Shown here: positions 854-64,000 of the stretch, in pieces
Numbering within the stretch: position 1 is the stretch's first letter
How the letters are laid out: every line of letters starts with the position of its first letter
Program-made: the position numbers and the translations under genes
Assembly (NCBI GenBank): GCA_918026815.1
Contig: CAKJVC010000089.1
Span: 124,001 to 188,000 of the forward strand
Length of the DNA: 64,000 bases
Origin: Chalara sp. BL73
Taxonomy: Eukaryota; Ascomycota; Leotiomycetes; Helotiales
Direction of reading: 5' to 3'
The notes under the pieces: model-generated
Databases searched by the model: none
Told to the model about the DNA's origin: nothing
The model's input: the letters and a program-made list of their open reading frames with translations, nothing else

Positions 854-1460
854 CCAGGCTAGAAAATTCCTTGGCAAATCGCTAAGGAACGCTCAAGCCT
901 GGCTCAATTCTTTGTGCAACCATTTGAAGCCTGGGTGAACTTAAGCGAAAGACCAAATGTAGTTAGAATTATGCTTGGCATATTCTCAATATAGGCTTAG
1001 CGTGTGAAAGATTATATATTGTAATATGCAGAGCATATCCTGGCATATATTTTGACTGAAAGACTATTATAATAAGCAGAACAGTTAGCATATTCTCAGC
1101 ATATGTTTAGTATATGTTTAGTATATGTTTAGTATATATTTAGTATATGCTAACTATATACTTTATAAAAACTTCTATTTACACTAAGCTTATTTATTTA
1201 TTTAATTACAAATTTACTTGCAGTAGTTTTTATAGTCGAGTCAATTAAACAACGCAGAAGTACAAAGTTGTAACGCTTCATTTCAAAGTTCAAAAGTTAT
1301 ATTGTACGCGTCGCTATGAAAAACGCGAAGCACGTTTTCTTAGCGTGGCTTATTTTATGCTTGGGATATGCCGGGGTGAGATTTCTAGCCTGGCTGAGCT
1401 CTTAAAGCTAAGATTTCTGGCCTGGGCCAAGTTTTTTTGCCAAGGAATTTTCTAGCCTGG
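854..1460. repeat. 607-bp unit bounded by a perfect 24-bp inverted repeat
   Basis: Positions 854-877 and 1437-1460 are perfect reverse complements (ends CCAGGCTAGAAAATTCC and GGAATTTTCTAGCCTGG). The 559 bp between them are AT-rich and non-coding. Just inside and outside the right arm the string CCTGGGCCAAGTTTTTT occurs twice. This fits a MITE-like non-autonomous element; no target-site duplication is visible, so the class is open. Confidence 0.45.
1083..1150. repeat. Short tandem of ATGTTTAGTAT
   Basis: About five imperfect 11-bp units (ATGTTTAGTAT, ATATTTAGTAT) lie in tandem within the AT-rich interior of the 607-bp unit. This is a simple minisatellite with no evident function. Confidence 0.6.
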
Positions 1461-1632
1461 GCCAAGTTTTTTCTAGCCTAGCCCAACTGGAACCCGCTCT
1501 AAACAGACAACACCTCGGCGCTTGATGATGCCGATTAGCTCTACAATCGTAGACGGCACAAGTCGGTCCCTTTGTTCCCGATGATGAACATGTAGACGAG
1601 TCTTTGCAGGGCCTGTGAATGAATGCGCAGGA

Positions 1633-3268
1633 ATGGCTGGTAAAGATGATGGACGGGCTGGCGATGATGTGATGGTCAAGCCTGTCAACCTTAGTGAGCA
1701 CGCAGCAAATACTCCTATTTTGTTTCGGTAGCACTAACGACTGACTTTGCAGAATCCTTCTCCCACAATAGCCCGACTCATGTCCACAATGTACGACAGC
1801 AGCAGATTCTGGTGGAAAGGATTATTGAAAGACGGGAGGCCACTCCAAGTGGGGACTCAGCTGTTGGATCCGGCGCCTCCTTCACACCACAAAAGACAAC
1901 TCAGCTTTCACAACACCACAGTTCTGTCCAGGATCATCCTATCGAAACTCAAGACCCCACCAAAGCTGCAAGCTCAAGGGCCACAACCGCACAACAAGGC
2001 GGAACATCAATTCCCGTGATCACTCGGTCCCCTCTTAACACTTCTGGGCCACTGCTCAAGGGAAAATACAAATACCAGGACAAGGAGGATTGGGCAAGTG
2101 AATTAACCTTACAGTTCGAGGGACTATTGCAGATTGGAAGACTAAATGACCTTGGTCGATCGCGAGTACGAGCTAATTCTCCATCAACTCGAGAACGTAC
2201 TTTGTCGTCTAATTTTAAAGCATCAGCGTCTTCCTCTCTCAACCCACCACAATCACTACGCTATCAAAGACCGACATCGAGTGACCCTTGGGCAAATTTC
2301 GTAACGATGCGTAAGAAAGAGGAGTTGCGCCGAATTAAGATCCCTTCACCACCTTCGGATGCTCAGTCGCAGAAGTTCCGAAATCTCTTGATAAATTTAT
2401 CTTTAACACCGACCAAGTATGAGAACCCAGGTTTTCTCGATGAGGCACTCCAAGTCATTCAATTAGATAGGATATATGGGGAAGCAGAGGAGGAGTCCCA
2501 AGTGCTGCAGGCACAAGCTGAGAGTATGGGTGATGGCCGCAAGCCGGAATGGGGATACCAGGACTGCGTTATTCGCGCATTACTGAGGTATGTATCATTG
2601 TTGACAATTTATCAGAATGAGTCTGACTCTGGAACAGATGGTTTAAACGATCTTTCTTTTCTTGGGTCAACAACCCTCCATGCCCAGTCTGCTTCTCACC
2701 AACTACTGCTCAAGGAATGACACCTCCCACGCAAGAAGAAACTGCGCATGGTGCGCTTCGAGTCGAGCTATACCAGTGTTCTGCCGCAAACTGTGGAACG
2801 TATGAACGATTCCCACGATATGGGGATGTATGGCGGTTGCTACAGACTCGAAAAGGCAGATGTGGCGAATGGGCCAACTGCTTCAGCATGTTGTGTCGCG
2901 CGGTAGGAAGTCGAGTAAGATGGGTATGGAACGCAGAAGCTCACGTATGGACCGGGGCGTACTCAGAAATGCAGAAACGATGGATCCATGTAGATGCGTG
3001 TGAGGAGTCTTGGGACAACCCGCGGCTGTATACCGAAAAACGGGACAAGCCGATGTCATATTGCATTGCCTTCTCCACCGATGGCGCAACAGATGTCACT
3101 CGACGATACGTTCGAAAAAGCGAGCATGAAAAGCTGAGGAATCGGTGCCCAGAAGATGTCATGCTTTATATCGCGAATGAGATTCGAAGCCTTCGACGAT
3201 TAAATATGCCCAAGGTTGAGCGATTTCGACTCGAGAAGGAGGATGCTGCCGAAGAGAAGGAGCTCTGA
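1633..3268 (+). CDS. PNG1: Peptide:N-glycanase (transglutaminase-like), PNG1
   Basis: This is the cytosolic deglycosylating enzyme that removes N-glycans from misfolded glycoproteins in ERAD. Introns at 1694-1752 and 2588-2637 join three exons into about 508 residues. The second restores the conserved [18 protein letters not shown] block across the splice. The Zn site is CPVC (314-317) plus C346/C351. The catalytic triad is Cys374 ([10 protein letters not shown]), His401 (AHVW) and Asp418 (HVDACEE), spaced 27 and 17 residues as in yeast Png1. The N-terminal 120 residues are low-complexity; the start at 1633 is the least certain part. Near the triad the usual EDHVW reads EAHVW. The frame ends at a TGA where family members often continue with Arg, so the C-terminus may be cut by a CGA-to-TGA change. 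Confidence 0.9.
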
Positions 3269-3370
3269 GCCTATATCATAGCATCAAATAACTCCATCAA
3301 ATGTCAGCTGTTAGAGAGGCAAAAAGAATTAGAGGAAGAGAAGGTTTATGACCGCGTCTCATTAATTTCT

Positions 3371-5754
3371 GTGTATGATTCGAAGAAGCTTCCCCTTTCA
3401 CTTCCGCGTCCACTAAAGGATGGTGAGCTATGTATTAAGTGTAGAACTATCCGTTTTGGCACTCCCTTCGGATTTGCGCGTTTGACCCTAGAGTCATCTG
3501 AGGATGAAAGCAGAGTCCAAAAACATCTCAGTATGGAAGACCTCGAGGAGTCTGCTGTTGATGGTTGCCCATGTTGTCAAATGATTTACCAAACCGTCAT
3601 GGAGAAAGCATCCTTTCGCTACTCTTTCCATCGTGTTAGGGCACAACGGGAAGAATTCAAAATGCTGGCAAAGGCGGACCCTATCAAAATGGATAAATAT
3701 TTGTTTAGAAAGGGCAGAAAACCATTAGCAGATGCTTCGTCAATAATCAGGCTTGACGGCATCGGATCGGACTTCATCTACCAAATGCCACTCGAAGGGA
3801 TGAATGAAGGAAAGTATTTAAGCACAAATTTTGAATTCTTTAGACAGAGAGGCAAGTCTTCAGGGAAATATGAATCGCAGGGCGAGTTTGACTTTTAATT
3901 TTAGATTTACCACTACCATTCGCGGAGGCGGATATCATTGAACAGAGAGAGCTTCAAGAGCGGCCGGACAGCGATCTGAGTTATGAAATTGTTTCATCTT
4001 GGATCCGAAAGTGCGTGAATAGTCACCGCAATTGCCGTCAAATTTATTCCAGCGTGCCTACACGGTTATTGAATATTTCCGGAAGCGACCCATTTTTAGA
4101 GGACGATGTTATCCCAGGAACACGATATACTGCACTGAGTCATTGTTGGGGCACAAGACCTACCTTAACGACTACGATATCAACCTTGGCGGAAAGGCGC
4201 CAAAGGATTGAGATAGCCGAAGTTCCTAAGACCTTTTCAGATGCGATTGAAATTTCAAAGAGATTGGGGTTTCATTACCTATGGATTGATTCTCTGTGTA
4301 TCATCCAGGACTCTATACAAGAGTACATCACTCATTTAACACAACTCTATCAGCTAGTTCACTGACGCTTTCATAGTTGGCTCGAAGAATCTGTGAAAAT
4401 GCTCGATTACTATCGAAATGCATGCCTCACTATATCGGCCCTTGATTCGCCTGACAGTCACAATGGAATACTAAATTCTAGGGACCTCTCTCAATCCGTT
4501 GAGCTCTCTTCAGAAATGAATCTATTCCTGCGGGTACGCCTGCCAGAACAACGCGAAGTAATACAGAATTCCTTGCTCAATAGTCGTGCTTGGGTACTCC
4601 AAGAGCGTTTGCTTTCCACCCGTATACTTCACTACAGCAAGAATGAAATGTTCTGGGAATGCCGGACATGCACGGCACGAGAGGGTAGTATTGCAGAAAA
4701 AGCGGCCGCGATCGACCCAGACTCAGTCATTCGTTCTGAAGGAGATGACTTTAAACGAATCCTTACGAGTATCTCGAATCTCGCGAGCGATACTCAAACA
4801 TCAAAAGCTATGTTCACTTGGTACCGAATCGTGAGACATTACTCGAGGAAAGCTTTGACAAGGAGCTCTGACAGGTTGCCTGCAATCGCGGGCATAGCAT
4901 ATGCGATCCAGGAAATTACTGGGTATATGTATCTCGCTGGAATCTGGAAGCAGGACCTCAAGGGTCTGCTTTGGTTTAGTGACGCTGCCCTGATCTTTGA
5001 TAATCGATATCAAGGTCCGAGCTGGTCATGGGCAAGTCACAGCCATCTCCCTGTTTCCTTGCATTTTGGTTCAGAGAAACAAGTCTCCTCTGCAAAAGAC
5101 GCCGAAATTATAGATACTAACATTGAAAGTATTGGATCGAAATTCGGTCAAGTCTCCCATGACTACATCAAGCTCAAAGCTTTCACCACTCCACTTTGCT
5201 ACCAACATAGCCGTTACAAGCACCGACTTGATAATAAACCATGGTCATTAGATGGTTACCGTTGTCACCGGGGTCTAGATATGGACCTAATCATGAGCCC
5301 TAGCCATGGATTTGGAAAGGGGTATTTAGATGCAGTTGATCAAGAACTTCTTGAAGCTGATCGTGAGATTGTGACCATTGATGACCCGACTAAAGGCGTA
5401 GAGATGAGTCTACAGCGAAATTTTGAAGATGCCCAATCTGGATTCACTAAACTGGGGCAGAGAATAAAAGGTTCCAGTATCCCAAATCGCCAGTATCACC
5501 CTCACCGTCGAATGAAGATGTGCCTGGCTATATGGATGTCAAAGTGGCTTGGAGAGGCGGATTCATATATTGGAGGGTATGTGAACGATTTGAAAGGTCA
5601 ATCAAGTATGGTTGGACAGATATTGTATTGCCTGTTGGTTGTAGAAGATATGGACAAGCCAGGAACGTGGCGGAGGATTGGGGTTGCCAAGGCACCGATA
5701 GAATACATTAAAGGTTGCAAATGGTCGGAGAAATTGGAGATAACTTTGGTGTAG
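3371..5754 (+). CDS. HET-domain (heterokaryon incompatibility) protein, start unresolved
   Basis: HET proteins act in fungal non-self recognition and can trigger programmed cell death. Three exons join exactly. A probable GC-AG intron at 3852-3904 (AG|GCAAGT...TTTTAG) brings LPLPFAEADII into frame. A GT-AG intron at 4323-4376 (GTACAT...CTGAC...TAG) restores CIIQDSIQDWLEESVKM. Hallmarks follow in order: YTALSHCWG, FSDAIEISKRLGFHYLWIDS, the YYRNACLTISAL block, SRAWVLQERLLSTRILHYS, LPAIAGIA, GLLWF and PSWSWAS. An N-terminal CIKCRTI...GCPCC Cys cluster precedes the domain. No in-frame ATG precedes residue 55 or so. The frame runs upstream, in phase with PNG1, to that gene's TGA, so the true start is missing or lies in an unseen exon. 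After splicing no internal stop remains. Confidence 0.8.
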
Positions 5755-5989
5755 CACACCGTTAGCAGATGAATGGATTCCAGGTTTGTAAAACTATGGC
5801 CTATTTTCATTCGTGCAACTTCCCTTCAGTATTTAGGAAGATTGTGCATGAGGAATCTGTACGCCTAAACAGAAACGCTCTGCCGCAATATATCACGTAC
5901 TTACATGACTTTAATACCTGCCAAACTAAACGCTACAAATACAATATTTAACTAGATTAAGGCTTAATAACTTCTGATGGTATATATTC

Positions 5990-6480
5990 AAAAAGGAAGT
6001 CGCAAGATAAAAAAATCAGCAGTGAAAAACTCTAGATCGAAGATTAACCTTGTGGACCTTGCCCACATGATTCTTGAAATGCATGACGTTAAGAACCATG
6101 CCCTCAGCCTTGCATACCGGATAGTGGCAGATCACCCGCTATTCAGCAGGCACCTTGCACAAATGAATATTCTCAACCTGGTCTTACATGTGTGACACGT
6201 GTTGAAAGGTGCGCGTTCGTTGCTCGTATGGAAGCCGCTCGTTTCCGATGCAAAGGGTATATAGGGTTTTCTTACAGATGATAGGGAAGTCGTCAGGCGG
6301 AAGGAAAGGATCGGAAGCTGAAGATTTTCTCTTGACTAAATCTTTGGAGGCAGAAGCAAATCGCGGCTTGCGAGCTTGAAACTCCTGTCGAGAGGCGAGC
6401 GTGGCCACGAGGTTGATGGCAGAGGCTCTTCGAGTGCTGATGGTTTAAGTACTTTGAGTAAGCCATGTTCATAATTTCTC
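5990..6480 (-). pseudogene. C2H2 zinc-finger tail of a DUF3435/FluG-type protein, broken
   Basis: On the minus strand the frame reads CKKTLYTLCIGNERLPYEQ, then FQHVSHM-stop-DQVENIHL, then the finger CHYPVC...HFKNHVGKVH. This order (Cys pair, 'HM.DHVENVHL', C2H2 finger) is the C-terminal tail of fungal DUF3435/FluG-domain proteins. Two stops interrupt it: TAA where the family has Trp, and TAG where it usually has Gln. It differs from the tail of the neighbouring recombinase relic, so it is probably debris of a second member. Confidence 0.6.
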
Positions 6481-6639
6481 ATGCCTTGACTAGTTAAAAC
6501 GTGCCAGCGAACTCCGCATGGCGTCGAACTAAATCAAGAATAAACCAGAAAAGCCCCGCCTCACTTGTAATCGTGATCCAGTTCTCATGCTTGCCCCTTT
6601 CCAATCGAAGATAACCAAGACACACAATAGCTCCGAAGT

Positions 6640-9100
6640 CTAGGTGATCGATCTCTGAGCAGGAACCCGTGAGACGGTTCCATGAAACCTTTCTGCATGA
6701 GTCAGCAGCTCTGCTCGGTTCTTTAACTTGTCGCCGCAAATGTGACAATCAATATGCATCCATTCTTGCAACTTGCTTACATGCTTCCTCAGAAAGTGTC
6801 TACTCAAAGAACCCGCGGTTGCATATAAGGCAACTCTTTCGCGCATTGTCAAAAACGGGTTTCCAAGACAAACGAAGCATTTTGTTGGCCTTTTTTCTCC
6901 TTTAATCGATCGTATCGCTTGGCTTAACGCATTGGGCGCTTCGGCTTTGAGGGCTAGTAAGCTTTTATTTTTTACCGGACGTCCACGCTGGATACAACGA
7001 GAAGCAGGCCTTTCTTCCACGCCGCAGTACGCTGTAATCGCATTGACTGCTGCGATCCTCCGTTAATACTCGTTTTCTAGAAACGTTTTAGGCAGCGTTA
7101 AAATAGCATTTATTAAAAAAAGATGTTCGAGCGTTATCTGATTTGATTGGTTTAATGCGTTTCGCGTGTTTTTGTCGACTACTTTTCTAGCTAACTGCCG
7201 CTCGCTATCGATCACGAGCTGCTTTTTCTTGAAACGTTTCACGAAGTCAACTAGAAGCAGCTTTCGCTGCCGCTGCTTCTTACTCTGAAAGCGACGGCGA
7301 GCTTTCTGATATTTTTTTTTTTTTACAGGATTTTTTCGAGTGCTTAACAGTTTCGTGATGCGACATTGCAATTTCACAATGCATAACAGCTTATTAACGA
7401 ACGCAGATTGCTTAAAAGTCAATTTCCGTGGCCGACGAAAATCGATCGAACAGCTTATTAAACATGCAAACCTTATTAGCTCTCGCTGAAGCGCTTAGCT
7501 ACGGTAAATGTTTTGAACATTAACGTTGATATTCCGATCGAAGTAGTGTTTTAAAAACGTGTCGATGCTAAAATGCTGCAGAATGAAGTTCTGGACGGAG
7601 TCGCTAACATCAGCTATGCAAAATTCCGTGATTAGTTAAAAGTCGATAAGTCTGGAAAGTAATTACTTACGGCTCTCGTTCAGCGCTTTGGCGTTCTTAT
7701 CGCGAAGAACATATAGCTTCGTTACTTGCGCAAAGCTTGTAATTTAGCCACTTATTTTTATCCGATAGCGGACCGAATCAAAAGACAGCTGCAATTGTAG
7801 TGCTAAACAAACGCTATAAACGGCTTGTATAGCTTAGCAAAATACAAAATCGTCGCTTAGTACATTTTTGAGCGAGAGCTGTTGTTTATTTATTCTTTTA
7901 AAAACATTCAAACTATACAACTTTTCCGGAGAAACAATACTAGAAGATTTAAATGCTTGAACTTTGAAAAGCATGCTAAGCAGAAATGTGTAAAAGCTAA
8001 GCACTAAAGTCGAGTTGTAAATGATCTCCGGGATCTTAAACTTATTGCTACAAAACACTTAGCTTACACGCTAAAATGAAAAGCAAACAAGACGTACGCA
8101 TTTTTTATGCTTAGAAATCTTTTAGTAAACTTAGCCGTTAGCTCGATAAAAAGTCGTGGCCGAAAGTTGTTGTAATCCCGGATTAAAGTCAATTTGAAGT
8201 GTCGGTAGCGAAGTTAGACTAAAGCTTTTGGCCGGTTACCGGTAATGCCCGCAAACTGGCAAAAAAAAATCAACTGAATCCGAAGCTAGCTAAGCTAGAA
8301 AGTTATTTCTTTTGTGGACAGAAGCACGCGAGCATATTCGGCAAGATTCTCGATATACATAGTAACATTTTCCCGCTTGGTGTTGTCGAGCTTCTTTTTT
8401 ATAGCAACAACGTTAAAAACCTAAAATCCGTTAGCAAGAAGTTACACAATAAAAGTCGTCCAAAAGCTACGGGGCATCTTACATTTTGACTTTGGACTTG
8501 AACTAGGCCATCGATTTTCTTGCTAGTTTCGAGCCGATATACTATAAAGTACTATTTCTAGAATGTTTCGAACGAGCTTGTATGCTTAATTCCAGGACGT
8601 TTCCGTCTATTTTTGCTTCGTCGTTAATCGCAAACTTAGCATAAAAGTCTGTAAAAAAAGTTGGCCGAGACTTTTTGAAAGCATTGAACTGGTTGCTGTC
8701 CGATAAAAGTACAGTACTTAAATGCAAGCTAATGTTAGCAGAACTTTCGTAGCAGAGTCGGTCTACATTTTGACATATACTGATTATAATAGTCTTTGAC
8801 CCAATCAAGGCGGTTTTGCGTTTTAGGGCTATAACGCTTCTGCCGGAGTCGTTCTACATCGAGGTTGGCCGATGCGGCAAAGTAGTATTCTGGTGGGTGT
8901 CGTACTTCATCATCAAAGAGATCGGCGTTGTCGTCAGTATTACTGTCAACCTCCTCCAGAGGGCCTTCTGAATCGGTATCGCTTGCCGTGTCCACCTCAT
9001 TGTCGCTGCTGTCAAATAAGCTGTCCGTGTCGGAGTCGCTCGTGCTGTCAGACTCGTTGTCGATAGACGGGTAATCGTCACCATATGGAGGCTGGTGCAT
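6640..9100 (-). pseudogene. DUF3435/FluG tyrosine recombinase (Starship-captain superfamily), RIP-decayed
   Basis: The minus strand starts at ATG 9100 (MHQPPYGDDYPS), with an acidic Ser/Asp tract and then RHPPEYYFAASANLDVERLR and KRYSPKTQNRLDW, typical of the DUF3435 N-terminus. Downstream islands include PEIIYNSTLVLS...SMLFKVQAF (8058-7834), the basic QLVIDSERQLARKVVD...LEHLFLINAILTLP block (7422-7063), and a tail with CFVCLGNP, GSLSRHFLRKHV and HIDCHICGDKL...HAERFHGTVSR. Stops and frameshifts break it; the frame continues through TAA near 7063 (LENEY-stop-RRIAAVNAI). The family are site-specific tyrosine recombinases; members that move Starship elements are called captains. Too much core sequence is lost to read the catalytic residues. 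The AT-rich inverted repeat starts immediately 5' of its ATG. Confidence 0.82.
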
Positions 9101-31952: not shown

Positions 31953-32377
31953 ATAACGTCCCTCCCTGCGTGCCGAGAAACCCTGCGAGCCGAGAAAAGC
32001 GATAGGTACTTTGACTTTAAGCATCTCAAACTCCACACCAGCTTATAAGTCCATAAAAATAAAACATCAGTAGCATTACACAGCTATTTATTAGCAATCT
32101 GACACTTTCCGAAGAAAATTTTGTATTCGCATCGTCGCTTTTTCGCCTGATTTATAAGAAGCCCTCATTTAGGCTTTAGTACGAGCTTTTTGCCACAGCT
32201 ATACTGGCAAGCTCTTATTATCCCTTACACGTCCTAAAAGTTCTTATTTAAGCTTCAGATCTATATTTTTTTGTCCGAGACCCTTATAAGCTTTGTGGCT
32301 GCTGTAGCGCGCAAATATACGCAAGATCGCTACTTGGTTCGGTACTTCTGATCGACGGAACTAACGATTCTCGGCTA
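31953..32377 (+). repeat. Left 425-bp terminal inverted repeat
   Basis: Starts ATAACGTCCCTCCCTGCGTG and ends ACGATTCTCGGCTA. It is the mate of 36326-36750 and is non-coding. Confidence 0.85.
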
Positions 32378-32916
32378 AATAGGACTGACTCCGGTGGAAT
32401 AGCAGCCGCACAAAGCAGAAGCAGGCACGTGACCGTTTATTGAGCTTCTGAAGAAAACGCTGCACTCCGCAGTCCCGTTGCTGAGTTACGCTCCACATGA
32501 CTACATTTTACTACATCTCAATGCTAATTTAAGAAATGTCAGCCTAAAGCTTAAAGCTAGAAAATCGAACATAGTAAAAGTGGAAGCTCGACACTAAATA
32601 GATAATCGAAGATAGATTCTGGGTCCGAGATTTCTTTTTCTATTACTTAATTCTCAGATTTCTTTAGCTTTTTTCTTAGCAACAAGAATACATTATTGTT
32701 AATCAAGATTAACTTCGCCGGTGAGCCTGAGCGACTGGGCCGGTTTTGCGCGCTTCCAGTGATGTACGACGATGCTATTACCGCGAGGCTGCCGCTTAGC
32801 TGAGTGCGCCAGCCTCAACCCGACATGAAGTCTTCACTCTTCGCATCTAGGCCAACTCGACGGCTTAACTACTACCGAGAACCCTTTTTCCCGCGATCCT
32901 CGAACCTAGTCGAATA

Positions 32917-35900
32917 ATGCGCTTGCTACAGTACAACAACGATAGCGATTTCAGCCTGACCGAGTTTCTTGAAAGCGATATACTTGAGTATGCTATACTC
33001 TCGCACACATAGAAACAGGATAATAGCAAGGAAGTCACATATGCGGAAGTGATGAGCGAGACTGGCCAGGACAAGGAAGGTTTTAAGAAGATTAGGTTTT
33101 GTGGAGAACAAGCTAAACAAAATAGTCTGCTATACTTTTGGGTTGATACTTGTTGCATCAACAAGCAAAACAAGGCCGAACTCAGGCATTCTATTAACTC
33201 TATGTTCCGTTAGTATCGCAGTGCAAGTCGATGTTATGTTTATTTGTCGGATGTTTCGACAAGGAAGCGAAAAACAAGCGATCTGTCGTTAGAGCATACT
33301 TGGAAATTGAGCTTTCGAGAGAGCAGATAGTTCATTCGAGGCTGGACACTCCAAGAGTTTCTTGCTTTAGCTTCGGTGGAGTTTTTTTTTTTCGAGAGCA
33401 AGCGACTTAGTGACAAGAGCTCTTTCTAGAAACAAATCTGCAAAGCAACAAACATTTCTTTTTTTGCGCTCCAAGAAGAATCTTTATCTCAATTTCACAT
33501 CGATGAGCGAATGCGGTGGATAGAACATCGAGAAACGGGGCAAGAGGAAGATAAAGCGTATTCATTGCTGAGCATTTTCGGTGTTTTTATAGCTCTTACT
33601 TATGGCGAAAGAGTAGCGAAAGCGTTCGATCGGCTGTAGAATAAATTTCGCGAAGTACAGAAATGTATGCAAGACTTACGGCTTACCGACCCCCGCTTTG
33701 ACAAGGAACGTATCGAGGCCACTAAAAGTGGCTTACTAAAAGAAGCTTACCGATAAGTGATAGAAACCTCCGACTTTCAACAATGGCGTACTAGCCAACA
33801 CAATCGGTTACTGTAGATCAAAAGCGACCCTGGAAAAGGCAAGACAATGTTGCTTTGCGGTATTGCCGATAAACTACAGAATTCGTTAGCTAAGTCTGCA
33901 CTTTTGTCGTACTTTTTTTGCCAGGCTACAGATTCCCGGATTAACCGCGCTACAACCGTGCTACGAGGTCTGATTTATTTGCTAGTCGACTAACAGCTAT
34001 TTTTCGTTTCGCATGTGCAAACGAGCTACGATAAAGCTGGCAAGGCGCTTTTTGAAGATGCGAATGCCTGGGTTGCTTTGACCAAGATTTTCTCTGGCAT
34101 TTTACAAGATACAAATCTAGATAATACTTATTTGATTGTCGATGCGCTCGATGAGTGCGTAGTTGACCTGCCAAAATTATTAGATTTCATCGCGCAGATT
34201 TCATTTGTATCTACTCGTGTTAAATAGGTAGTTTCTAGCCGCAACTGGCCAGAAATTGAGAAGACGCTCGACACTGCAATGCAGAAGCGAACGCTATGTC
34301 TCGAGCTGAATGCAGATTCCGTTTTTACTGCCGTTGCGACTTTTATTCAAACTAAAGTTCACGATTTAAGAAAGAAGAACAAATATAAGAGCGAAACACG
34401 AAACGTTATCCAGCAACATTTTTCGCTGAACGCACATAGTACTTTTCTTTGGGTGGCTTTAGTTTGCCAGGAGCTGTCGAATCTTTCAGGATAGAAAGCT
34501 GTCCAGAAGTTGAAAGCATTGCCACCTGGACTCGATGCACTTTACTAGCGGATGCTGGATTAAATTATAGCGTCAAAAAATTCTGAGCTCTGTATGAGTG
34601 TACTGGCTGTCGTATCGACTGTGTATCGGCCCATTACAGTTGACGAGCTAGTGACTTTGGTGAATATGCTTAATGGAGTTGATAGTGAATATAAAGCTTT
34701 AGCAAAAATCATAGGTTACTGCAGATCTTTTTTCGCAATTCGAGAACGTACGATTTTTTTTGTGCACTAGTTAGCAAAGGACTTTCTAATTAAAAAGGCA
34801 TTTCAAGAACTACTTCTCTTCAGAGCACAAGACGTGCATAACAGCATTTTTTCTCGATCACTGCAAGTTATGTCTATGACACTACGGCGTGATATTTATA
34901 ATCTAAGGGCTCCCGGAATCTCTATCGACTAAGTAGAACCGCCCGATCCTGATTCTTTCGCTACAGTGCGGTACTCCTGTCTTTACTGGGTAGATTATTT
35001 CCTCGAATGTCAAACAAGAGAAAACACAATCAAAGACTTTAAGGGCCTCGGCCCGGTTTACAGTTTTTTCCGCTAGTACTTTTTGTATTGGCTTGAGGCG
35101 ATGAGCCTGTTGAAAAGCGTGTCAGAAAGCGTAGTTATGATTCGGAAGCTCGAGGATTTTCAGGTACGTTTTTGTGTAGTCTCGTCGTTGTCAGATTATT
35201 CTAATGTGAACAAGTTTGATAAAAGTCCTAATTTGCGTCCGTTTATACAAGATGCAACGCGGTTTGCCGTATCCAGCCGATCAATTATTGAACAGGCGCC
35301 TTTTCAAGCATATTGTTCGGCTCTGGTTTTCGCCCCAGAAAAAAGCATTGTTCGAGAAACGTTCGAGGAATGTATTCCATTTTGGATCCAGAAAAAGCCT
35401 AGAGTAGAAACATATTGGAATGCGATGCTACAAACACTCGAGGGTCATACGGATACGGTCACTTTAGTGGCCGTTTTTCTTAACGGCAAGCAGATCGTGT
35501 CTGGGTCTGACGATATGACGGTCCGGCGCTGGGACGCGGTTACAGGCCAGCTGCTGCTGCCCGCCCTCGAGGGCCATACGGATAGGGTCACTTCAGTGGC
35601 CTTTTCTCCCGACGGCCAGCAGATCGTGTCTGGGTCTGACGATAGAACGGTCCGGCGCTGGAACGCGGTTACAGGCCAGCAGCTGCTGCCCGCCCTCGAG
35701 GGCCATACGGATAAAGTTACTTCAGTGGCTTTCTTTCCCGACGGCCAGCAGATCGTGTCTGGGTCTGACGATAGAACGGTCCGGCGCTGGGACGCGGTTA
35801 CAGGCCAGCAGCTGCTGCTCGCCCTCGAGGGCCATACGGATAGAGTCACTTTAGTGGCCTTTTTTTTTGACGGCCAGCACTTTCCTACTTTACACGTGTC

Positions 35901-36060
35901 CGAATACTGGCTAACAAATGGTACTACTAAACTGCTCTGGCTACTTACTAGTTATCGACCTGTTTGTGAAGCTGTCTATGACAGGAGTATTGTTTTAAGA
36001 CATTCGACAAAGAAATTATTATTTCTTCAGATTCAACAAAAGTTAAAACAAGTAATATAA
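32917..36060 (+). pseudogene. HET-NACHT-WD40 NLR (HET-D/HET-E type), RIP-decayed
   Basis: The frame starts at ATG 32917 with the HET-domain opening MRLLQYNNDSDFSLTEF and YAILSHT-stop, followed by FWVDTCCINKQNKAEL and RGWTLQEFLA. A NACHT NTPase follows: P-loop SDPGKGKTMLL near 33823-33850 (first Gly replaced by Ser) and Walker B TYLIVDALDEC near 34128. Four WD40 units and the family C-terminus (FPTLHVSEYWLTNGTTKLLWL) end it at 36060. In living fungi such proteins sense non-self through variable WD repeats and drive incompatibility death. At least ten in-frame stops, mostly TAG/TAA at Trp/Gln positions, show it is dead, yet the frame is otherwise kept. Confidence 0.85.
35437..35880 (+). repeat. 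Four near-identical 129-bp WD40 units
   Basis: Units start at 35437, 35566, 35695 and 35824, each CTCGAGGGYCATACGGATA. Each encodes 43 residues (LEGHTD...GQQIVSGSDD...VRRWDAVTGQ). The last is truncated after DGQH. The units are GC-rich and differ at few codons, while the rest of the gene is AT-shifted. Differences cluster at TVTL/RVTS, AVFL/AFSP, M/R and WD/WN. Confidence 0.9.
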
Positions 36061-36325
36061 AAAGTAATAGTTGTCAGTGGAACATGTATAAAGCTCTCGA
36101 TATAATATCTCTTTTTCGTTTTTCTTCTACTTTATAGAAGGTCCTAGAAGAGGCTAAAAATTTATAGTAGTTTAATGATTACAGTACTCCTTACTTCTAG
36201 AATCTTCTATAAAATGTTGATTATATGCAGAGCTAATAATAACGTTCGCATAATAAATAAGTCACGCGACACGTAACTTAGGGATGGATTAATTGCTTTG
36301 CGGGAAGTGCGGGGTTAGTCTCTGC

Positions 36326-36750
36326 TAGCCGAGAATCGTTAGTTCCGTCGATCAGAAGTACTTGAACCGCGTGGCGACTATACAACTGTTTCGCGTTATA
36401 GTAGCTACAAAGCTTATAAAGGTTTCGGACAAAAAAATATAAATCTGAGGCTTAGATAAGAACTTTTAAAACGTGTAAGAAATAATAAAAGCTTACTAGT
36501 ATAACTGTGGCAGAAAACTCGTACTAAAGCCTAAATAGAGGCTTCTTATAAATCAGGTGAAAAAGTGACAATGCGAAAACAAAATTTTGTTCAGAAAGTG
36601 TCAAATTGCTAATAAATAGCTGTGTAATGCTACTGATCTTTTACTTTTGTAGACTTATAAGCTGATGTGGAGTTGAGAATGCGTAAAGTCAAAGTACCTC
36701 ATATTTTTCTCGGCACGCAGGGTTTCTCGGCACGCAGGGAGGGACGTTAT
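36326..36750 (-). repeat. Right 425-bp terminal inverted repeat
   Basis: Inverted mate of 31953-32377; outer tip reads GAGGGACGTTAT at 36739-36750. Non-coding. Confidence 0.85.
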
Positions 36751-39286: not shown

Positions 39287-39555
39287 TGCAACCAGATATT
39301 GATGGCTTATGCCACCGCCTATACGTGATGGTCCTAATCATCGAGCAACCAGATAATTGATGGCTTATGCCACCGCCTGTACGTGACGGTCCTAATCGTC
39401 GAGCAACCAGATAATTGATGGCTTATGCCACCGCCTATATATGATGGTTCTAATCATCGTGCAACCAGATAATTGATGGCTTATGCCACCGCCTATACAT
39501 GATGGTTCAAATCATCAAGCAGCCAGATAATTGATGGCTTATGCTACAACCCGTA
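39287..39555. repeat. 58-bp tandem repeat, about 4.6 copies
   Basis: Units begin CCAGATAATTGATGGCTTAT and contain GCCACCGCCT, with transition differences between copies. The array ends within the start of the next open frame. No function evident. Confidence 0.85.
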
Positions 39556-61240: not shown

Positions 61241-61322
61241 TTATGCCAAGGCGAGCTACTGCACCTGACGCACAAAAGCTTCGATTTTGATAATTTGTCT
61301 TTTTTCCTTTAATATCTCGATC

Positions 61323-64000
61323 ATGGCGCTCCAAATAGATGACTCTTTCGATAATATAGATCAAGCTAAATTAGCTATCAAAACCTTTGTTGCGAACGCT
61401 CTCGAATCGTGGAAAGCTACTCATTCCGACAAGAAAAGGTTCAATATTGTGTGCAAGTCTCGAACCTGTAGCTTCAGAATCAGAGCGTCAGATTCTAAAA
61501 AGAAAGGAGTAACAATTACGCATCTGAAACCTCATACTTGTGGCCCGGCAAGGCATTTCAAAGCTGTAAACACCAAAAGGTTGGAATATTTAGTGCCTCA
61601 CCACCGTGCGTCGATTCTTGATAACCCTAAAATCACTCCAAAACAATTGATTTCGAATGAACGGTTGCACTATTATAATCATATCAACTACCTTCAGGCG
61701 TTCCGTGTAAAAGAAGCTGTACTAAAAGAGCTATACGGCGATGAATCCTCTTCTTTTGCTCTTTTTCCTGCGTACCTAGAGCGATTCAAGGCTGCTAGTC
61801 GACACAATTATGGAGTGCTCAAAACTGGAGATGATAGCGAATTCCAAGCTGTCTTTTTTGCGCCAAAAGCAACTCGTATGGGCAGCCGAGCGTTGCGCCA
61901 ATTCTATGCTCTCGATGGTACTCATACGAAGTCTCGATATAGAATGATTTTGTTGATTTGCTGTGGAATCGACGCTAACGACCACGTTGTTCCTTCAGCT
62001 TGGGCGTTAGTACCTATTGAGGATGAAATATGGTGGAAGTGGTTTTTACAGCACTTAAAAGCTGCTTTCCCTCATACTGCTTTCGAGCGATTTACTTTTA
62101 TTTCTGATCGCGAAAAGGGTATGGCCAACGCTCTTGCAAAAGTTTTTCCTGACGCGTATCATCTTCATTGTTGCCAGCACTTGGCCGACAACATACAGCA
62201 AAGATTTGGTAATAAAGTCAGGCCGTTATTCTGGAAAGTTGCACGTGCGAAATCGGAGGATAAACTGAAAAAAGAGCTTTTGAATTTGAAGAAAGTTAGC
62301 GTGCCTGCTTTCGAATATCTTGTCAAAATCGACCCCAAATTGTGGACTAGAGTAGGCAAGCTGTACCCTGCGTACGGCCATGATACCTCTAATATTGTCG
62401 AATCGATCAATTCGGTTTGGGATGTTTATCGACAATTGCCTCCTCTTCAGCTTGTATGGCATGATATAACGACCTTGCGGCAAATACGCAAAATAAGGTA
62501 ATAAAATATGATAATTGATCAAATTGCAAATTGCAAATCGAAATCATTAAATTAATAACTTAGTACTTTTAACTTTTCTGGGCCCCTTGACTTTCCTGGC
62601 CATCGACGTTCCTGGCCCTCGACGTTCCTGGCGCCCTCGACGTTCCTGGCATCCTCGACTTTCTTGGCTCTCGACTTTTCTGGCGCTCTCGACTTTCCTG
62701 GCTTTCGACGTTCCTGGCTTTCGACGTTCCTGGCGCTTTCGACTTAAAAACAAAGCTGTATTCGTTTTTTATTGTAGAAGTAAAAGAAAAATACAAACAC
62801 AAATACTTGTAAATACTTTAAAAAAGGCAAATATGCCAAGACAGTCCCTTGCGTAGCAAATTTTTTCACTTTTTTTGTTTTTTTTAAATGCAAACAAAAC
62901 AAGCTTTAAAAAATCGACAGCGCCAGAAAAATCGAAAAAGCTAGGAACGTCGAAAGCCAGAAACGTCGAGAGCTAGAAACGTCGAGAGCCAGAAACGTCG
63001 AGAGCCAGGAACGTCGAAAGCCAGGAAAGTCGAGAGCGCCAGAAAGTCGAGAGCCAAGAAAGTCGAGGATGCCAGGAACGTCGAGGGCGCCAGGAACGTC
63101 GAGGGCCAGGAACGTCGATGGCCAGGAAAGTCAAGGGGCCCAGAAAAGTTAAAAGTACTAAGTTATTAATTGAATGATTTCGATTTGCGAATTGCAATTT
63201 GATCAATTATTATATTTGATTACCCTATTTTGCGTTGTTGCACGTTGGTCGTTATGTCATGCCATACGACATACCAATGGCCAAATTCAAAGCTCGTTTT
63301 CAGTCTTCTCGTCGATATCGAGTTTATCCTACAGATGAAAGCTTAGCGCAAGTTGAGGATCCAGATACAGGGCATTTATGGGAAGTTGATTTAGAAAAAA
63401 GAAAAGTGCGAATGTACAGACTATTGGGAATATCAGTCGCCTTGCGCGCATGCAATTGCAGTTGCGCGCTTCCATGAAAAAGGATCCTATTAACTACTTT
63501 TTAGAGAACTATACAAAAGAGTGGCACCGAAAGACTTACTACTCGAAGCTGAAGCCAATATCGATCGCAGACCTTCCTCGAGATGAATCAATTAAGCCTC
63601 CTCATTTTCGCAAACAAGCTGGTCGACCCAAAACGAAAAAGAATACGCAAAGGCAACTGGAATCGGAAGCAAATTCGCTGTGGCAATTGCCTTAACTGGG
63701 GCCATAATCGTCGGCGTTGTACGAGCCAACCTGTATTGAACGGCCGTCGAGCACGTGCATACGAGTGGTTGCGAGAGGTAGAAAGTCAAGAAAGCGATGA
63801 AGAGAGTGACGAAGAGGGTGACGAAGAGGGTGACGAAGAGGGTGATGAAGAGAGCGACGAGAAAGCTTTAGAATGGAGTGACGAAGAGGCCGAACGCCTC
63901 GATATAGAGCTGGGCCTTGCAAAGGAGGAAGAAGTTGTAGAAGAGATAGAAGATCATATTACTGTCGATTTCGATATGGATCAGGAGCTACGTGATAGCG
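61323..64000 (+). pseudogene. Mutator-like (MULE) transposase, interrupted and frameshifted; runs off the window
   Basis: ATG 61323 (MALQIDDSFDNIDQAKLAI) opens a FAR1-type zinc region (CKSRTCSFRI...HTC). The DDE core follows: ALDGTHTKSRYRMIL (D1), FISDREKGMANALAKVF (D2), HLHCCQH and DTSNIVESIN (E). An 814-bp fold-back insertion at 62454 cuts it. Beyond lies MAKFKARFQSSRRYRVYP, a SWIM finger (CECTDYWEYQSPCAH), a zinc knuckle (CGNCLNWGHNRRRC) and a Glu/Asp-rich repeat tail. Three one-base shifts break the 3' half, near 63400, 63480 and 63640, all in A-rich runs. It is a cut-and-paste DNA transposase, now dead. The DDE half shows no RIP-type stops. Confidence 0.88.
62454..63267. mobile_element. 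814-bp fold-back element inserted in the MULE
   Basis: Outer arms match as inverted repeats from GTATGGCATGAYATAACGAC inwards for about 290 bp each (left to about 62745, right from about 62950), leaving a 200-bp A/T-rich loop. The inner parts of the arms are packed with 12-17 bp subrepeats of CGACGTTCCTGGC/CGACTTTCCTGGC. No coding capacity. Non-autonomous; the ends do not show a clear target duplication. Confidence 0.75.

Follow-up and report, generated by a model that had tools for sequence, protein, structure and literature searches.

A non-autonomous DNA transposon with Fot1/pogo-type ends and a HET-NACHT-WD40 cargo in a helotialean fungus

The stretch analysed (the window, 64,000 nucleotides, G000:C83:124001–188000, contig CAKJVC010000089.1) belongs to the genome of the helotialean fungus Chalara sp. 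BL73 (assembly GCA_918026815.1), which was searched over 58.66 Mb on 199 contigs; contig labels from C2 to C175 all refer to this genome (G000). The window holds an element, E1, that runs from TA to TA between two inverted arms and encloses a decayed HET-NACHT-WD40 gene, that is, a gene of the NOD-like receptor (NLR) kind. The features of E1 are collated in Table 1.

Table 1. Element E1 and its parts, in positions of the window (TIR, terminal inverted repeat; ORF, open reading frame).
Feature	Position	Strand	Basis or remark
Element E1, whole, non-autonomous, TA to TA, 4796 bp	31954..36749	.	second copy E2, 92.6% identical
Left terminus: TA, ACGTCCCT, two 17-bp direct repeats (Fot1/pogo-type TIR core)	31954..31997	+	17-bp internal repeat described for fungal Tc1/mariner TIRs (PMC2836289)
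Right terminus, built like the left one	36706..36749	-	
Left 425-bp arm, A-type end	31953..32377	+	
Right 425-bp arm, A-type end	36326..36750	-	
HET region of the pseudogene	32818..33636	+	tblastn, 55% identity to the HET ORF at a different tipped locus (L035)
HET-NACHT-WD40 pseudogene frame, 975 codons	32953..35877	+	15 in-frame stops (11 TAG, 4 TAA)
NACHT (NPHP3_N) region	33757..34242 (C83:157757-158242)	+	profile match of 99.8 bits, interrupted by 3 stops
WD40 repeat array (3.4 copies of a 129-nt unit)	35437..35879	+	

The arms form an inverted repeat in which positions 31953–32314 pair with 36389–36750 (362 nt, 87%) and positions 32342–32393 with 36310–36361. An earlier note on this DNA had described two reverse-complementary arms of 425 bp with doubled tips. 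When taken at that length the arms were aligned over 424 columns with 58 mismatches, 46 of them transitions, and the doubling was confirmed on both sides as pairs of 17-mers (94% alike on the left, 100% on the right). The limits 31953..36750 given in the same note apply to the arms and not to the exact ends of the unit, since E1 lies one base further in, with TA at 31954–31955 and at 36748–36749. An arm used as the query returned 45 matches in its own genome, and on the strength of these matches and of the arm alignment a chance inverted repeat was ruled out. Compared with the core of the CENP-B box, the 17-mer agreed at 7 of its 9 positions, and 100 of 20000 shuffled sequences did as well; this comparison was not used as evidence.

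The HET, NACHT and WD40 parts of the cargo were recognised by homology in a single frame. The statement that exactly one HET-NACHT-WD40 gene lies between the arms thus stands by homology, with the correction that the gene is a pseudogene because of its 15 in-frame stops in 975 codons, all TAG or TAA. A second unit of the same type, E2 (G000:C165:203699–210359), is 92.6% identical to E1 and has two extra stretches of 1291 and 707 columns. Transitions account for nearly all mismatches between the two (329 of 345); for the most part they are C/T changes followed by T or A, or the complement of these. The TpA/ApT ratio is 1.13 in E1 vs 0.91 and 0.82 in its two 10-kb flanks. Because of this transition bias and the raised TpA/ApT ratio, E1 and E2 are read as copies probably inactivated by mutation resembling repeat-induced point mutation (RIP).

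A 30-base tip pattern was searched genome-wide with mismatches allowed and with the reversed pattern as the control. It was found at 99 sites (50 forward, 49 reverse) and a second conserved block at 83 sites; both controls gave 0. The common terminus spans about 48 bp and contains two 17-bp repeats (E5 has only one unit per end), which is the short TIR with a 17-bp internal direct repeat by which Fot1/pogo-type Tc1/mariner elements were to be recognised. Long arms are restricted to some family members, and the 425-bp arms of E1 are a special case of the 48-bp terminus. Sixteen elements were read. HET-NACHT-WD40 genes, by domain or homology, were found in E1, E2, E3, E7, E6, C63, C60:191215 and C130; TPR repeats, DUF7779 and, slightly under the cut-off, an NB-ARC match in E4; HET in E10 and E11; ankyrin repeats in E5; a transposase with ADH in C52 and a transposase in C66; HIUase/homeodomain with 2EXR in C121; and, in C2, ORFs without identification that run from A to B. 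Outside this reading lie the tip pairs C108:17918, C165:176213, C7:1302858, C175:244588 and C130:108946. The bases adjoining the TA differ between the two sides of the elements. Elements of the Mutator type (Mutator-like elements, MULEs), which have long TIRs, make a target-site duplication of about 9 bp; membership in that group was ruled out, the bases beside the TA not being alike on both sides.

The subterminal sequences at the ends of 15 elements fell into groups of 19, 8 and 3. The group of 8 was named type B and the rest type A, the group of 3 being assigned by eye. One A and one B end are present in the transposase members C52 and C66, in E3, C63, C130, E6, E11 and C2 and, by its sequence, in E7; two A-like ends are present in E1, E2, E4, E5, E10, C60:191215 and C121. 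Double right tips were seen at C60:535 kb, C4, C5 and C165:178 kb. At C92:118000–128085, a set of paired right tips recurs at a distance of 9.2 kb, and a relative of the E4 TPR protein lies in the interval.

Transposase genes were found behind tips of the same kind. With 141 of 155 DDE_1 matches used, 9 tips had such a match within 4 kb on the inner side and 0 on the outer side, and within 7 kb the numbers of tips were 11 and 2; some of these tips are double tips or duplicated loci (C4/C5). HTH_Tnp_Tc5, a helix-turn-helix (HTH) domain, occurs together with DDE_1 in C52 (L043); DDE_1 is accompanied by an HTH match just under the curated cut-off in C65 (L048), and C66 (L044) and C5 (L047) have DDE_1. 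Identity between the proteins of C52 and C65 is 75%. The tip pair is complete in C52 and in C66, both of which have stops in DDE_1, and C65 and C5 are open frames with one end known. Remnants of the transposase lie in E11 beside the HET gene and in E5 beside the ankyrin repeats. The combination of a CENP-B/Tc5-type HTH with DDE_1 inside the tips, as expected of Fot1/pogo-type elements, was thus found for the family and not in E1; from these sequences we infer that the receptor members would be mobilised in trans by this enzyme.

The association of receptor genes with the tips was counted over the whole genome, with 150 of 308 candidates scored for NPHP3_N (NACHT) and the best 150 of 766 for HET. 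Among 21 innermost tip pairs of 1–12 kb, 7 enclosed a NACHT match (the copies E3 and E7 being two of the 7) vs 0.3 expected from the 150 matches in the genome; flanks of twice the length contained 2, one of which is the gene of a neighbouring element. Of 142 tips, 23 had a NACHT match within 7 kb on the inner side and 5 on the outer side. The one-sided sign test gave 0.00046, a value that is optimistic because neither duplicated loci nor the two tips of an element count as independent. NACHT was present in 8 of the 16 members read; three of these (C63, C130:202752 and C60:191215) had been picked for reading since a NACHT match was already known there, which makes the tip-based test the fair one. 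Searches of the genome with the arm, as the earlier note had proposed, and with the tip pattern led to further pairs of same-type tips, and these flank both other NLRs and transposases.

The carried NACHT ORFs fall into two lineages, E3/C63/C60:191215 and E6/C130, with 20–24% identity between them, and blastp of either lineage gave no match to E4. In a tree of 74 rows, in which 5 own sequences were joined by 69 outside proteins drawn from the first 70 of 120 matches (P0012 left out), E3/E7, C63 and C60:191215 fell into separate groups. A single origin of the carried NLRs is therefore unsupported. A paralogue at C67:236516 is untipped over the 9 kb read and is 75% like E3 in its DNA across NACHT-WD40; none of four tipped HET parts compared matches there. 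In view of the separate tree groups, the two lineages and this paralogue, either receptors were taken up more than once or elements lost their ends more than once. HET, NACHT and WD40 with closely alike WD repeats, the layout of the HNWD genes, were found together in E3, C63, C60:191215 and C130, and in decayed form in E1. The best named matches of the E3 NACHT ORF are from Pseudogymnoascus, Trichoglossum and Hyaloscypha, and a conserved LETM1 ORF (L042) is closest, at 94%, to one of Cadophora sp.

Whole units recur at different sites. E3 (C100:57118–63307) and E7 (C165:145033–151222) are both 6190 bp long; the blastn match between them covers 1116–7309 of locus L038 vs element limits of 1119–7308, at 97.6%, so that the homology ends no more than 3 bp from the element ends, and over the outermost 120 bp of either end the two do not differ. 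The flanks of E3 and E7 gave no match at E 1e-3 (the E7 left flank compared was 133 bp). E2 shares both boundaries with E1 and its flanks are unlike, no similarity being found between the 1-kb flanks of the two. These two whole-unit pairs, the TA ends and the same-tipped transposases support the suggestion that E1 is a mobile unit. It could instead be supposed that two independent miniature inverted-repeat transposable elements (MITEs) flank a resident NLR by chance and that no unit ever moved. Tip-bearing pairs as short as 239 and 251 bp, arms that stand alone in the 9.9 kb read, with no partner tip (C83:90366 and C165:189821), and the A type of both E1 ends would fit such an account, and the two circumstances that had been named as refuting a mobile unit, arms alone and an NLR free of arms, do both occur (the 239/251-bp pairs and the untipped paralogue). 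Chance flanking was nevertheless excluded because the whole-unit copies share boundaries, E1 with E2 and E3 with E7, in other flanks; 7 NACHT-enclosing pairs of 21, with 0.3 expected, likewise speak against it, and the account was rated as highly improbable.

E1 is a non-autonomous, cargo-bearing DNA transposon with Fot1/pogo-type ends, and very probably a member of a Fot1/pogo-type family of the Tc1/mariner superfamily in this helotialean fungus. A transposase with Tc5/CENP-B-type HTH and DDE_1, supplied by other same-ended members, would excise the unit after binding to its paired 17-bp repeats and integrate it at TA. In the A/B-ended members the transposase region would have been replaced by a receptor gene; in the A/A-ended members, the window copy among them, capture would have proceeded by end duplication or through neighbouring insertions. 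E1 and E2 would then have been silenced by RIP-like mutation, and other members would have kept open frames that differ in their WD repeats.

Several findings weigh against this explanation. No intact transposase was found within a complete tip pair. A search of the own genome with the joined 99–100-bp flanks of 10 elements, in which 40 of 185 candidates were scored, revealed no empty site; the matches consisted of own flanks, a duplicate of the E5 left flank on C67, a repeat in the E11 left flank and two weak matches. The check for empty sites that had been proposed was negative in this genome, so that insertion and excision can only be inferred; of the expected target duplication, the TA on both sides is present. 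TA was found at 31 of 32 ends of the 16 elements (the exception being the left end of C2), which is not a blind test because the tip pattern starts with TA. The window copy has two A ends, whereas the transposase copies are A/B. HET gave no clear excess inside the tips (8 vs 4 outside within 7 kb, 5 vs 4 within 4 kb). The cargo does not consist of receptors alone, as C121 (HIUase/homeodomain and 2EXR) and the ORFs of C2 demonstrate, and arm-free NLR paralogues exist. The lack of an empty site and of an intact transposase in a complete pair, the E5 left flank present on both C59 and C67, and the repeated tips of C4/C5 and C92 would also suit copying by segmental duplication, or by recombination between the end repeats, with no transposase involved. 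Homology between E3 and E7 that breaks off no further than 3 bp from either element end, with TA at both ends, and DDE_1 transposases with the same tips argue for transposition instead, and copying without a transposase was considered improbable.

In C121, one ORF (L054 2005–2685) carries transthyretin/HIUase and homeodomain matches, and a second ORF belongs to the 2EXR family. A second short repeat family was noticed at C67:211389–211875 and elsewhere, with 20 matches of 94–100% to the E11 left flank. Two of its matches form an inverted pair of about 487 bp, its end adjoins the E11 insertion site, and some of its copies have an NLR or HET match no more than a few kb away.

Both E3 and E7 have retained three long pieces of one frame, the same in the two copies (313, 547 and 717 amino acids), across which a Cadophora HET-domain protein (a partial record) aligns in a single frame. 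The two breaks in the frame look like introns, and E3 and E7 look coding-competent. The WD exon accounts for most substitutions between the two copies (103 of 129). Of its changed codons, 40 are silent and 53 replace the residue; 38 of these 53 replacing changes fall on four positions of the 42-residue unit (6, 9, 19 and 25), which are the four most variable positions among the E3 repeats. Two copies of one element thus hold different repeat sets, and the divergence may have arisen either before or after the move. In the HNWD genes of Podospora, WD repeats diversify at interaction-surface positions (PMC1805685). The likeness extends to the HET-NACHT-WD40 layout, to alike WD repeats that diversify and to RIP-inactivated pseudogenes; the cargo genes look like self/non-self recognition receptors. 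The Podospora genes differ in that, in the part of the paper available, none is described as the cargo of a TIR element, one pseudogene lying directly after a transposon relic (PMC1805685).

Among the A/B-ended members, 8 have a gene that could be identified (a transposase in 2, a receptor or HET gene in 6, the E7 copy included). The gene runs from B to A in all 8, and in 5 of 5 when copies and transposases are left out; the C2 ORFs, which run from A to B, were not counted. Past the 48-bp terminus, the leader at the B end of the transposase member C52 is 66% identical to that of E3 over 314 columns (E 4e-35), and 62%, 60% and 60% identical to those of C63 (364 columns), E6 (332 columns) and E11 (338 columns). 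The simplest reading of these sequences is that the cargo sits in the transposase's former place, behind the transposon's own leader. The A/A members may have arisen when one end was duplicated or when neighbouring insertions were mobilised together, the latter being a route proposed for Pack-TYPE elements (PMC8903248). As a tentative generalisation, for which the chance was put at about one in three, the pogo/Fot1 family would have repeatedly swapped its transposase for receptor genes in the same orientation behind its own leader. The end may supply a promoter, and transposition together with WD-repeat turnover would yield a dispersed, mobile repertoire from which RIP removes some copies.

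It is also quite possible, at only slightly less than even chance, that transposition is real and the link with receptors is a by-product of numerous NLRs in transposon-rich regions, which would often be picked up and kept. Such a by-product denies only a receptor preference and is compatible with the explanation of E1 as a cargo-bearing member of the family. It is favoured by the sheer number of candidates (308 NPHP3_N, 766 HET), by the presence of other cargo and by the lack of a clear HET enrichment; the NACHT count of 23 vs 5 at the same tips, and the same orientation and leader in two lineages, argue for true carriage, and not against a bias of passive capture.

Fot1/pogo-type Tc1/mariner elements of fungi, such as Trem of Paracoccidioides, share with the present family the TA target and a transposase with HTH/CENP-B and DDE (PMC2836289); fungal Tc1/mariner TIRs measure 42–49 bp, and TremA has a 17-bp internal direct repeat (PMC2836289). 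The present elements differ from Trem in their length of 4–9 kb, in that many are without a recognisable transposase, in their receptor genes and, for some, in inverted arms of about 425 bp. Like the plant Pack-TYPE elements, among them Pack-Mariner, they are non-autonomous, have the TIRs of an autonomous family and hold captured host DNA, the Mariner type likewise having TA (PMC8903248). They differ in occurring in a fungus, in carrying whole multi-domain receptor genes, some with open frames, and in keeping the orientation of the transposase. A hAT element with histone H3 in Pseudocercospora is likewise a fungal DNA transposon that multiplies a captured host gene, with RIP of the copies (PMC6710886); it belongs to another superfamily and carries one housekeeping gene, whereas here more than one receptor lineage is carried and some copies are without signs of RIP. 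Transduplication by a fungal DNA transposon has been described in Pyrenophora (PMC3538342).

Starships are also fungal mobile elements that carry NLR genes; they are giant, multi-gene and grouped by their tyrosine recombinase (PMC12134995, PMC9815663), in contrast to the TIR elements of 4–9 kb described here. Starship membership of E1 was rejected, 4796 bp lying between the TIRs with the HET-NACHT-WD40 pseudogene as the sole gene recognised among the scans (captains were not searched for), and the earlier note had rightly set this small TIR element apart from Starship transport. A survey of how NLRs are organised in Sordariales uses the terms transposable and transposon once each (PMC12258605). 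Among the papers listed by a literature search, judged by titles and the starts of abstracts and with preprints and most subscription journals outside its range, there was no report of NLRs in Tc1/mariner-type elements. Cargo-bearing transposons and NLRs on Starships are thus known, and recurrent carriage of NLRs by small Fot1/pogo elements was not found in print.

Elsewhere in the window, a tandem array (58-bp unit, 4.4 copies) lies at 39288–39544, and two stretches of 16-bp tandem units in opposite orientation at 62572–63146. An ORF at 61287–62501 has MULE transposase and MuDR DNA-binding domains, and a 453-aa ORF at 4393–5754 has a weak C-terminal HET match under the curated cut-off. A tRNA scan of the window found none.

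The finding bears on how fungal NLR/HET repertoires spread and come to differ between strains, for which Starships are the known vehicle. If true, a cut-and-paste vehicle of a few kb would let strains differ on a small scale in how many copies of a receptor they have, where these lie and which repeats they contain. Empty TA sites, transcripts that start in the transposon end and new incompatibility specificities at new loci would then be expected.

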